Shown here: positions 12,880 to 55,002 of the stretch, in pieces
Layout of the letters: each line of letters begins with the position of its first letter
How positions within the stretch are numbered: the stretch's first letter is position 1
Origin: a bacterium
Lineage (GTDB): Bacteria; Vulcanimicrobiota; Vulcanimicrobiia; Vulcanimicrobiales; Vulcanimicrobiaceae
Direction of reading: 5' to 3'
Assembly: GCA_021790935.1 (NCBI GenBank)
Contig: JAJYFL010000002.1
Location: 1-64,000, forward strand
DNA length: 64,000 nucleotides
Translations under genes and position numbers: made by a program
The notes under the pieces: generated by a model
What the model was told of the DNA's origin: nothing
Database searches by the model: none
What the model saw: only the letters and a program-made list of their open reading frames with translations

Positions 12880-14220
12880 ATGGAGACCGACGCCCGCCCG
12901 CGCGCGAGTATGGACGAGATCGTGGCGCTTGCCAAGCGCCGCGGCTTTATATTTCAGTCCAGCGAGATCTACGGCGGCATAGGCGGCTTCTACGATTACG
13001 GCCCACTCGGCACCATCCTAAAACGTAACGTCAAAGATGCGTGGTGGCGCGAAAACGTGGAGCTGCGCGACGACGTGGTGGCCTTCGATTCGTCGATCGT
13101 CATGCACCCGCTCGTATGGAAAGCCTCCGGGCACGTCGACGCATTTCACGATCGCCTCGTCGACTGCAAGATCTGTAAGCACCGCTTTCGCTTCGATCAC
13201 TTGAAGAATGCCGAGCAGTGCCCGGATTGCGGGAGCAAAGGGTCGCTGACGCAGCCGCGGAACTTCAATTTGATGCTGCAGACGCACGTCGGTCCGATGG
13301 AGGATTCGGCTTCGGTAGCATATTTGCGCCCGGAGACGGCTCAGGGCATCTTCGTCAATTTCAAGAACGTCTATCAAAGCGCGCGCAAGAGACCGCCGTT
13401 CGGCATCGCGCAGATCGGCAAGTCGTTTCGCAACGAGATCACTCCCGGAAATTTTACCTACCGCCTGCGCGAGTTCGAACAAGCCGAACTCGAATACTTC
13501 GTTCCCGACGACGGCAACGATCTGGCGACGTTCGAAACGTGGGTGGAACGGCGCAAGCAATGGTATGCCGATTACGGCGTGAAGCCCGACCGCTTGCGGT
13601 TCTACGAACTATCGCAGGAAGAACGCCCCCATTATGCCAAGGCCGGCGTCGACGTGGAGTATCTGTTCCCGTGGGGCTGGGGCGAACTCGAGTCGATCGC
13701 GCATCGTGGGACGTACGATCTCGACGCGCATATGGCGCTCTCGGGCAAAGACCTGCGCTTCTTCGACGAGGGTTCCAAGACGCATTACACGCCGCTGCTC
13801 ATCGAGAGCTCCGCGGGGGTGGATCGTACGGCGCTGACGATGCTGATCGATGCCTACGAGATCGACCGGAGCGTCGATCCCAACGGGAAGGATACCGAAA
13901 GGCTGGTGCTGCGCTTCCATCCGCGCATCGCGCCGGTGCAGGCGGCCGTATTTTCCCTGGCGCGCAACAAACCGGAGCTCGTCGAGCGGGCCCGTTCGAT
14001 CGAGAGCGCGCTTCGCCGGCGATTTCGAACGCAGTACGATGAGGGGAATATCGGGCAGCTCTACCGGCGCCAGGACGAAATCGGGACCCCCTGCTGCATT
14101 ACCGTCGATTTCGATACGCTCGAGGACGGAACCGTAACGGTGCGGGATCGCGACTCGATGCACCAGGAACGCGTCGGTGCCGGCGGGCTCGAGGCGCTCT
14201 TGCACGAAAGATTCGCCTAG
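12880..14220 (+). CDS. glyQS: glycine--tRNA ligase, single-chain class II type
   Basis: 446 residues, charging tRNA-Gly as a homodimer (eukaryote/archaeal-like GlyRS rather than the alpha2-beta2 form). The N-terminus FIFQSSEIYGGIGGFYDYGPLG, a zinc-ribbon-like insert (CKICKHRF ... CPDCGS), YLRPETAQGIFVNFKNV (motif 2 region) and IAQIGKSFRNEITPGNFTYRLREFEQ are all diagnostic. The anticodon-binding domain runs from about 335 to the end. A second possible ATG lies at 12910. The stop TAG shares its last two bases with the left end of the palindromic repeat. Confidence 0.95.
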   Translation: METDARPRASMDEIVALAKRRGFIFQSSEIYGGIGGFYDYGPLGTILKRNVKDAWWRENVELRDDVVAFDSSIVMHPLVWKASGHVDAFHDRLVDCKICKHRFRFDHLKNAEQCPDCGSKGSLTQPRNFNLMLQTHVGPMEDSASVAYLRPETAQGIFVNFKNVYQSARKRPPFGIAQIGKSFRNEITPGNFTYRLREFEQAELEYFVPDDGNDLATFETWVERRKQWYADYGVKPDRLRFYELSQEERPHYAKAGVDVEYLFPWGWGELESIAHRGTYDLDAHMALSGKDLRFFDEGSKTHYTPLLIESSAGVDRTALTMLIDAYEIDRSVDPNGKDTERLVLRFHPRIAPVQAAVFSLARNKPELVERARSIESALRRRFRTQYDEGNIGQLYRRQDEIGTPCCITVDFDTLEDGTVTVRDRDSMHQERVGAGGLEALLHERFA

Positions 14221-14383
14221 GAGGCTGTCGGAGTTGAGCCGTTTTCGGATTTGGTGCCGAATTTTGTTCGGAGACGAGGCGCGAAGAAGGAGCGAAGCCG
14301 TAGCTTCGTGACTGATGAGCAACGAAGTATTCGGGCAAAAGGCGGCCCAAAGACGGGAACGTGCTTAACTCCGACAGTCTCCT
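14219..14383 (+). repeat. palindromic dispersed repeat, copy A
   Basis: 165 bp. The ends AGGAGGCTGTCGGAGTTGAGC and its near-complement match at 19 of 21 positions, and imperfect pairing continues inward for about 55 bp per arm. The centre (GACGAGGCGCGAAGAAGGAG through CTGATGAGCAACGA) is almost identical in all three copies and itself contains the hairpin CGAAGC-CGTA-GCTTCG. This copy begins in the glyQS stop codon and ends 41 bp before ppdK. No transposase is encoded. Confidence 0.85.
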
Positions 14384-14423
14384 AGCTTCGACCCGACCGC
14401 TTTTCGGAGGTACGCACGACACG

Positions 14424-25930: not shown

Positions 25931-27418
25931 TTGGTCAAGCGAATCCTTGGCTCGATAATATACACGGCCCTAGGCTTGCTCGCTCTGACCGCCGCGGGGC
26001 AGGCGCCCCCGAACCCATACGTGCAGATCGAGCGCTTGGAACGCGCGCGATCACTCGGTGGGGGCCAGCTGGCGCGCTACCTTTCTTCCCGCGACCCTCG
26101 GATCGCGGCGCGTGCGGCTCTTGCGGTCGGCCGGACCGAGCTGCTCGCCGGCGCGCCGCTACTGGCCGCGCACCTGCACGATCCTCGACCGGGTGTGCGG
26201 GCCATGGCGGTCTACGGGCTCGGTTTGATTCGCGACCCCCGGTACGCGGCGGCGGTGATCGCTGCGGTCGGCGCTCGCAACGGGGCCGTAGCCGTCGCCG
26301 CGCTGGACGCGGTCGACCGTTACGAGGCGCCTCCGACGCTCTTCTCGGCTCGCCGCGAACGGGCGGCGGCACGCGCGCTCGCCCGCACGCTGCGGCAGCG
26401 GCGCGATCCTATCCTCCGCGCGCGGGCGGCAACCGCGCTCGAAGCGTTCGGGACCGGCGCGATGGGTTTCTTCGCCGAGCGGACGCTGGTCGCGGCGTTC
26501 GCGTCCGAGCGCGACGCGTACGTGCGCTGGCACATCATGTGGGCGGTCTTCCGCGCGTATTCCGTGCGCGTGCCGAGAACTTTTCTCACGCACGCGCTTC
26601 ACGATCCGAGCGTGCTCGTGCGGATCGAAGCGGTCCACGCGCTCGGCCGCGTCGAGAACCGCGACGCGATCGCGGCGCTCGAGCCGATGACCCACGATCC
26701 ATCGTGGCGCGTACAAGAACAGGCGCTCGAATCGATCCGCGAGCTGCGCGGGGAACCGCTTACCGCGCACTTGAAGGCGATTCCGGCCGGCGTCCACATC
26801 CCACCGCTGCAGCCCGATCCGTTCGCCGATCTTCCGGCGCTGCCGCGCGCGGCGGCGAACGCGAAGCCCGCCGCTCCCACCGCAGCGGCTGCGATCTACC
26901 TGCCTCGAATCGATCCGACCACCTCGGCGCTGATGAACGGCCCGGCACCGGGGCCGCATCCGCGCGTGCGGATCGTTACCACGAAGGGCGACGTCTACGT
27001 CGAACTCTACCCCGAGTGGGCGCCGCTTACGGTCGAGAACTTCCTGAACCTCGCCGGCGAAGGATACTTCGATGGGAATGCGTGGTTCCGCATCGTGCCG
27101 GATTTCGTCGTGCAGACGGGCGATCCAACAGGCACCGGCAACGGGGATGCGGGTTACACGCTGGTATCCGAGGAGAATCCGTTAGAGCAGGGCAGTTACG
27201 TCATCTCGATGGGTTTGAACTACACCGACCCGCCCGGCGCCCATGCGATTCGCGACTCCGCGGGCACGCAGTTCTATATCACGCTTTCGCCGCAGTTGCA
27301 TCTGGATCGAAACTTCACGGTCTTCGGGAAGGTCGTAGGCGGATTCGGCGTACTGGGCCGCTTGATCGAATCCGATAAGATCGTCCGCATCGAACGCATC
27401 CCGGACAGCGGCTCTTAG
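25931..27418 (+). CDS. HEAT-repeat / cyclophilin fusion, exported peptidyl-prolyl isomerase
   Basis: 495 residues from TTG 25931, chosen because it gives a signal peptide (LVKRILGSIIYTALGLLALT, cleavage near AGQA); upstream frame is shadow. Residues about 40-300 are HEAT-type repeats (AVYGLGLIRDPRYAAAVIAA, VHALGRVENRDAIAALEPM). From about 345 a complete cyclophilin follows: VRIVTTKGDVYVELYPEWAP, the active-site FRIVPDFVVQTGDPTGTG and FYITLSPQLHLDRNFTVFG. The predicted role is folding of exported proteins, with the HEAT part recruiting clients. The stop TAG overlaps the left end of repeat copy B. Confidence 0.85.
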   Translation: MVKRILGSIIYTALGLLALTAAGQAPPNPYVQIERLERARSLGGGQLARYLSSRDPRIAARAALAVGRTELLAGAPLLAAHLHDPRPGVRAMAVYGLGLIRDPRYAAAVIAAVGARNGAVAVAALDAVDRYEAPPTLFSARRERAAARALARTLRQRRDPILRARAATALEAFGTGAMGFFAERTLVAAFASERDAYVRWHIMWAVFRAYSVRVPRTFLTHALHDPSVLVRIEAVHALGRVENRDAIAALEPMTHDPSWRVQEQALESIRELRGEPLTAHLKAIPAGVHIPPLQPDPFADLPALPRAAANAKPAAPTAAAAIYLPRIDPTTSALMNGPAPGPHPRVRIVTTKGDVYVELYPEWAPLTVENFLNLAGEGYFDGNAWFRIVPDFVVQTGDPTGTGNGDAGYTLVSEENPLEQGSYVISMGLNYTDPPGAHAIRDSAGTQFYITLSPQLHLDRNFTVFGKVVGGFGVLGRLIESDKIVRIERIPDSGS

Positions 27419-27580
27419 GAGTTTGTCTGACTTGGGCCGTTTTTGGATCCGGAGGCGATTTTTGTCCGAAGACGAGGCGCGAAGAAGGAGCGAAGCCGTA
27501 GCTTCGTGACTGATGAGCAACGATGTATCCGGCAAAAATCGACCCGGAGACGAAAACGCGCTCAAGTCAGACAAACTCCT
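27417..27580 (+). repeat. palindromic dispersed repeat, copy B
   Basis: 164 bp. The ends are AGGAGTTTGTCTGACTTGGG and its near-complement. The outer arm differs from copies A and C (TTTGTCTGACTT against CTGTCGGAGTT), but both arms of this copy carry the change, so pairing is kept. The central 50 bp are almost the same as in A and C. It starts within the stop codon of the cyclophilin fusion and ends 24 bp from the stop of the convergent cytochrome gene. Confidence 0.85.
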
Positions 27581-27603
27581 GGGGCGGCCCGGCTACGCCG
27601 GCG

Positions 27604-37042: not shown

Positions 37043-37129
37043 GCGCGAGTGGCGAAATTGGTAGACGCACTAGCTTGAGGGGCTAGCGCCCGCAAGGGCG
37101 TGCTGGTTCGAGTCCAGTCTCGCGCACCA
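37043..37129 (+). tRNA. tRNA-Leu (anticodon GAG)
   Basis: 87 nt, class II. Acceptor GCGCGAG (37043-37049) pairs exactly with CTCGCGC (37119-37125), followed by A and an encoded CCA. The anticodon arm is CTAGC-TTGAGGG-GCTAG, giving GAG. A long variable arm (CCCGC-AA-GGGCG type) and the T arm GCTGG-TTCGAGT-CCAGT complete it. Standard for tRNA-Leu reading CUC/CUU. Confidence 0.95.
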
Positions 37130-53290: not shown

Positions 53291-53461
53291 GCTAGCAGGC
53301 TGTCGGAGTTAAGCACGTTTCCGTCTTTGGGCCGCCTTTTGTCCGAATACTTCGTTGCTCATCAGTCACGAAGCTACGGCTTCGCTCCTTCTTCGCGCCT
53401 CGTCTCCGAACAAAATTCGGCGCCAAATCCGGAAACGGCTCAACTCCGACAGCCTGCTAGC
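53291..53461 (-). repeat. palindromic dispersed repeat, copy C
   Basis: 171 bp, core in reverse orientation relative to copies A and B. Its ends form a terminal inverted repeat of 24 bp (GCTAGCAGGCTGTCGGAGTT outward) with one mismatch. It is about 95 percent the same as copy A by eye, including matching arm changes (GTTTCC with GGAAAC here, GTTTTC with GGGAAC in A). It lies between the metallophosphoesterase stop and the ABC ATPase coding region. Confidence 0.87.
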
Positions 53462-54954: not shown

Positions 54955-54961
54955 GCGCGCG

Positions 54962-55002
54962 GTACCAAATCCGAAAACGGCTCGACCCCGGCGGCCTGTT
55001 AT
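54962..55002 (+). repeat. palindromic repeat end fragment D
   Basis: ACCAAATCCGAAAACGGCTC and the following bases match one arm of copy C (CCAAATCCGGAAACGGCTCA) and continue through its terminal segment with a few changes. The core and other arm are missing. It lies between the ABC permease and the convergent MBL gene. Confidence 0.65.

Follow-up and report, generated by a model that had tools for sequence, protein, structure and literature searches.

A TA-bounded, MITE-like stem-loop with a tandem-GA head shared across bacterial phyla and exchangeable arms

Short stem-loop repeats that are MITE-like by anatomy occur in three copies (A, B and C, each of about 165 nt) in the 64-kb window, i.e. 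the whole stretch of DNA that was analysed. The head of the repeat is conserved across several phyla, and its arms vary freely as long as they are paired. Judging from sequence comparison, the repeats are probably a non-autonomous mobile stem-loop of the MITE kind, bounded by TA and carrying a conserved folded head, which is moved in trans, in the likeliest case by a DDE transposase.

Three related copies in the window

The following features were located:

14218..14384, plus strand: copy A of the element, running from TA to TA
14218-14220: left TAG of copy A, the stop codon of the ORF at 12880-14220
14273..14327, plus strand: head of copy A (tandem-GA helix and hairpin), from a match to covariance model R1 and from the fold
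27416..27581, plus strand: copy B of the element, its right TA decayed to TG
27416-27418: left TAG of copy B, the stop codon of the upstream ORF
27471..27525, plus strand: head of copy B, from a match to covariance model R1 and from the fold
53293..53459, minus strand: copy C of the element, running from TA to TA
53350..53404, minus strand: head of copy C, from a match to covariance model R1
54960..55001, minus strand: lone, headless remnant of an A-type arm (TAACAGGCCGCCGGGGTCGAGCCGTTTTCGGATTTGGTACCG)

The central core of about 50 nt has the form GGCGCGANGARGGAGC-hairpin-GTGACYGANGAGCRACGA and is the same in the three copies except at its 3' edge, which reads either ACGAAG or ACGATG. In the window the exact core motif CTGATGAGCAACGA is found three times, a number reached in none of 100 shuffles even with two mismatches allowed. 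The fold of copy B has a z-score of -10.5 with RNA energies and of -9.9 with DNA energies, and no shuffle was equally stable. A tRNA at 37043-37126 (plus strand) is the sole Rfam match at gathering level in the window.

A sequence-only reading of this DNA had proposed that the arms covary between copies around a fixed core, with one arm sequence common to A and C and another in B, each of them self-complementary. Both claims hold. CTGTCGGAGTT is present in both arms of A and of C and TTTGTCTGACTT in both arms of B; between A and B, 7 of the 52 arm pairs are changed on both sides, where 1.7 would be expected if the sides changed independently (Fisher p = 3e-5), six of these seven differences keep the pairing, and the core is near-identical. 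The same reading had named the independent insertion of two unrelated elements as a refutation. This is excluded, since A and B can be aligned end to end and are homologous over their full length: the A-type and B-type arms are diverged relatives.

Insertion at TA and placement at gene ends

A genome-wide search found about 40 copies in the host genome, which is Eremiobacterota-related. Nine or ten of these are of the B-type, with 90-98% identity to copy B, and about double that number are of the A-type (roughly 79-85% identity to copy B). The ends read TA-[GGAG...CTCC]-TA. CTAG is the preferred target, but GTAG, TTAG and others also occur, and the duplicated target is thus TA rather than CTAG. 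Two sister species (G001 and G002) have neither copy A nor copy B at the corresponding positions. At the site of copy A, G002 reads GATTCGGCTAGCTTCG, whereas the window reads GATTCGCCTAG-element-CTAGCTTCG; G001 has only the short CTAGCCGGCTAG there, reading ACTAGCCGGCTAGC where G002 has GCTAGC, which is perhaps the footprint of an excision. The anatomy is that of a MITE: the elements are short (164-303 nt) and non-coding, paired ends are found in 76 distinct elements, TA is duplicated and relatives carry empty sites.

Gene context was determined for 31 mapped copies in the host genome with our own simple gene caller based on codon usage. A stop codon lies exactly at a boundary in about 20 of them. 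Relative to the neighbouring genes the head strand displays no bias: nine copies lie '++', nine '--', ten between convergent and three between divergent genes. A 3'-UTR RNA was considered and rejected, as the gene-strand bias expected of it is absent from the 31 copies. CTAG itself is more than fourfold depleted in the window (45 seen versus 206 expected from base composition), so that stop codons are among the few CTAG sites that are tolerated. Insertion into a CTAG that holds a TAG stop codon would be harmless, because the leading G of the element re-forms TAG, and this would explain the placement at gene ends.

That most copies lie at gene ends (10 of the 31 between convergent genes) and that the hairpin is very stable would also fit ordinary transcription terminators or stabilisers of 3' ends. 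We regard this as very improbable, since the full hairpin is not followed by a U-tract, the CTAG target accounts for the position at stop codons, the sister species have empty sites and a simple terminator has no need of a head that is shared across phyla.

The head in other bacterial lineages

Within the host phylum the covariance model of the head has matches in 64 of 149 genomes, all in two families of one order, and a DNA pattern of the head is found in at least 96 stretches of public genomes. The head occurs in at least six groups, namely Eremiobacterota, Myxococcota, Sphingomonadales, Bacteroidota, Elusimicrobia and Verrucomicrobia; among the pattern matches listed are Eremiobacterota, Myxococcales, Kofleriaceae, Sphingopyxis, Sphingomonas, Qipengyuania, Phaeodactylibacter, Saprospiraceae, Chitinophagales, Elusimicrobia and Verrucomicrobiales. 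Contamination during binning is not the explanation, as several of the head-bearing genomes are from cultured isolates. In 12 genomes that were checked the number of heads ranges from 1 to 72, with at least 7 in 11 of them. A search of viral contigs, plasmids and phages gave no match to the element.

In each lineage the head is found within different self-complementary arms, usually bounded by TA. Across 19 distinct arm families an arm scores on average 22.1 for pairing with its own partner, versus 3.8 with the partner from another family. A longer form of 240-300 nt, with a second branch, is present in Sphingomonads, Elusimicrobia, Verrucomicrobia and some Bacteroidota and Eremiobacterota; in the Elusimicrobia a variant head, lying on the opposite strand, makes up this second branch. 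The host genome holds a further arm family (TTAACAGGTTGCGGAAAAAG...) with the same head (locus L022, minus strand, position about 2457), a copy of which lies near G000:C9:273735, about 0.8 kb from an A-type copy.

Fold of the head

The element is predicted to form a long hairpin, in which an outer helix of about 25-31 near-perfect base pairs would double as the terminal inverted repeats. The predicted inner helix is interrupted by small internal loops and leads to the head of about 50 nt, where a continuous helix with four tandem G.A/A.G steps would be capped by a hairpin with a variable stem.

Covariation in the head was assessed on 87 distinct heads with a tree-aware procedure (G statistic with average-product correction; null of 200 replicates in which the inferred substitutions were placed randomly on a FastTree tree), which is our own approximation of R-scape and not R-scape itself. 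Significant covarying pairs, which the sequence-only reading had named as confirming the fold, are present in the head. The nine top-scoring column pairs all lie within one nested helix, with E-values at the test floor of 0.005 for three pairs, of at most 0.05 for two more, of 0.065 for one and above 0.6 for three. The pair between the second and the third GA step occurs in all four Watson-Crick combinations, and one non-canonical pair alternates between C.A and A.G. The covariation score of 30 cross-phylum sequences is 0.497, versus 0.136 after shuffling and at most 0.075 in slid registers. RNAalifold, unaided, gives the same continuous helix. The four tandem G.A/A.G steps, which may be sheared pairs, lie among Watson-Crick pairs; the inner three hardly vary, and the outermost is variable at its first G. 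As a clear example of a helix in which covarying pairs frame four tandem G.A steps, the head should be useful to structural biologists. A hammerhead ribozyme was considered and dropped: the motif in the place of the invariant CUGAUGA core varies as YGANGA, its variable, supposedly catalytic bases pair with the other strand and change in pairs, and an Rfam search at gathering and relaxed thresholds gave no hammerhead match at the element.

Of 76 elements, 74 fold better as the core strand than as the complementary strand, the head shows a conserved G-U pair, and its fold is reproduced with RNA energies but not with DNA energies. The covariation is statistically supported, as in structured RNAs, and this holds equally for a folded single strand of DNA; the head may act in either form.

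Movement as folded single-stranded DNA, read through the hairpin head in the way that RAYT (HUH) transposases read REPs and integron integrases read attC sites, would account for the unrelated ends. The recognition-like conservation sits in a hairpin head on one strand, and the arms need only pair. Nevertheless, REP/RAYT movement involves no TA duplication, and both orientations of the element are found close together on the same contig with no evident bias for a replication strand, so that this route seems to us distinctly unlikely. The attC sites of integrons are imperfect palindromes in which the folded strand rather than the sequence is read, and their arms vary freely, as do those of the element. 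They are located in cassette arrays and undergo site-specific recombination, whereas the element forms dispersed insertions at TA.

Changes in the arms

Among the 22 A-type copies of the host genome we find 10 distinct Watson-Crick double changes, versus 1.3 double cells expected. These include transversions, and few broken intermediates are present, which suggests occasional templating of one arm by the other. The nine B-type copies contain no double change. One-sided arm changes, counted in three copy sets with the target-site pairs left out, keep a G.U pair in 19 cases and give A.C in 7 (one-sided p = 0.014), and this excess suggests that the folded core strand matters. Templating between arms and importance of the fold may both be true.

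It is possible, though somewhat doubtful, that the complementarity of the arms is maintained by template switching or fold-back repair at a quasi-palindrome instead of by selection, the arms being terminal repeats only. In line with this are the double changes among the A-type copies and internal deletions between short direct repeats that resemble slippage. Templating alone does not predict, however, that G.U-keeping single changes exceed A.C changes; inner arms keep their internal loops across lineages, no double change occurs in the nine B-type copies, and the conserved head is left without an explanation. Selection for a folded hairpin with a sequence-specific head, as originally proposed, is supported in part. 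The support is strong for the head, which is the same across phyla and has its covarying pairs exactly in the predicted register. For the arms the argument is weaker: the element is mobile, its outer arms double as terminal inverted repeats, and the both-sided changes in recent copies, with few broken intermediates, could reflect templating of one arm by the other, so that arm pairing alone is weaker evidence for selection on the fold than the head is.

The tolerance of G.U over A.C, together with the covarying head, its conserved G-U pair, the success of RNA energies where DNA energies fail and the extra hairpin domains inserted in some heads, as structured RNAs have them, would agree with a parasite at the RNA level or a regulatory RNA. 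The core strand would then be transcribed, its GA-rich head being protein-bound or active, and it would spread via an RNA intermediate, like a bacterial SINE. We consider this unlikely, since strand bias relative to the neighbouring genes is lacking (9 versus 9), no promoter-like site was found in copy B, and a duplicated TA together with inverted ends is characteristic of DNA transposons.

Comparison with known repeat families

The bacterial MITE families ERIC, RUP and Correia (CREE) duplicate TA on insertion. Like them, the element is short and non-autonomous, has terminal inverted repeats and a TA duplication, forms a stable stem-loop and is present in many intergenic copies. Those families are united by their ends and limited to related hosts, whereas the ends of the element differ between and within hosts and its structured head spans phyla. 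The new feature is this cross-phylum head with exchangeable ends. With structured RNAs in Rfam 15 the element shares a covarying helix, a conserved non-canonical core and optional inserted hairpins, but no Rfam 15 family matches it at gathering or relaxed thresholds. The short repeat TTGCGAGGAGCGAAGCGACGAAGCAATC resembles the outer part of the head, to which it may be related; fragments of it led to no relevant paper in the open literature. Neither the core sequence nor repeats of this kind were found described in the open literature, subscription journals lying mostly outside the search, and an earlier description in the latter is possible.

The ERIC, RUP and Correia (CREE) elements are reviewed in PMC10969869. 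Among palindromic repeats, the CGTC-tagged REPs (dRS3, RPE-4, RPE-6) are found in several phyla, many of them in the Alphaproteobacteria, and have no dedicated transposase known; they are 20-40 bp long, with a stem of 8-9 bp, a loop of 4-5 nt and an unpaired CGTC tag (PMC3733652). The element is likewise palindromic, present in several phyla and variable in its paired stems, with no dedicated transposase known. It differs from REPs, which are palindromes of 20-40 bp with an unpaired terminal tag, in its length of 165-300 nt, its fully paired ends bounded by a TA duplication and its tandem-GA head. The GTAG REPs are hairpin repeats with an unpaired GTAG tag on one side, moved in trans by RAYT transposases (PMC3733652). 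They may be a parallel in that a folded strand is recognised, although the element, unlike the GTAG REPs, has paired ends and duplicates TA.

How the element may be moved

Duplication of TA and long inverted ends are typical of DDE transposases of the IS630/Tc1 or IS5 (IS427-like) kind. Mobilisation in trans by a TA-duplicating enzyme would most likely involve such a transposase, which the TA duplication makes the likeliest mover. Elements with unrelated ends have only the head in common, from which we infer that a common factor would read the head, folded on the core strand either as RNA or in the form of single-stranded DNA. Recognition of DNA transposons normally goes through their ends. 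In this family, which accounts for tens of insertions in a genome, frequently at stop codons, the ends can be replaced and conservation across phyla lies in the middle. A conserved middle with variable ends is odd if a transposase reads the ends, and it points to a partner that reads the folded head.

No transposon with the ends of the element was found among the DDE_3 and DDE_Tnp_1 genes of the host genome. In one Elusimicrobia genome the pairs of terminal repeats enclose only short elements, with no transposon having the same ends. No gene is common to the neighbourhoods of the head across lineages; clusters are seen only among related hosts, and on inspection none is a shared transposase. 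On contig C24 of G000 (loci L237-L240) several transposase genes are clustered, and two IS5-like reading frames are interrupted by a TAG codon.

More speculatively, the repeats could belong to a bacteria-wide mobile class that is defined by the folded tandem-GA head and not by its ends. The fold would be recognised by one conserved factor, or by the head itself, and the arms would be rebuilt by self-templating, so that almost any sequence could serve as terminal repeats. We think this wider reading doubtful.

Variants and decay

At loci L063-L071 the heads have an extra domain of 45-60 nt with two hairpins in one strand. The short loops of this domain contain UCC and look conserved, whereas the stems differ between species.

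In decayed copies (L216-L231) the head or the greater part of the arms is gone, in several cases between short direct repeats, and other copies are reduced to one end only; from the sequences, this decay looks like slippage at hairpins. Solitary element ends of 17-30 nt (e.g. AACTCCGACAGNCTCCTAG), which by their sequence are probably deletion remnants, lie at gene ends at 1600-1616 of the window (minus strand) and at loci L221, L222, L225-L227 and L229-L231.
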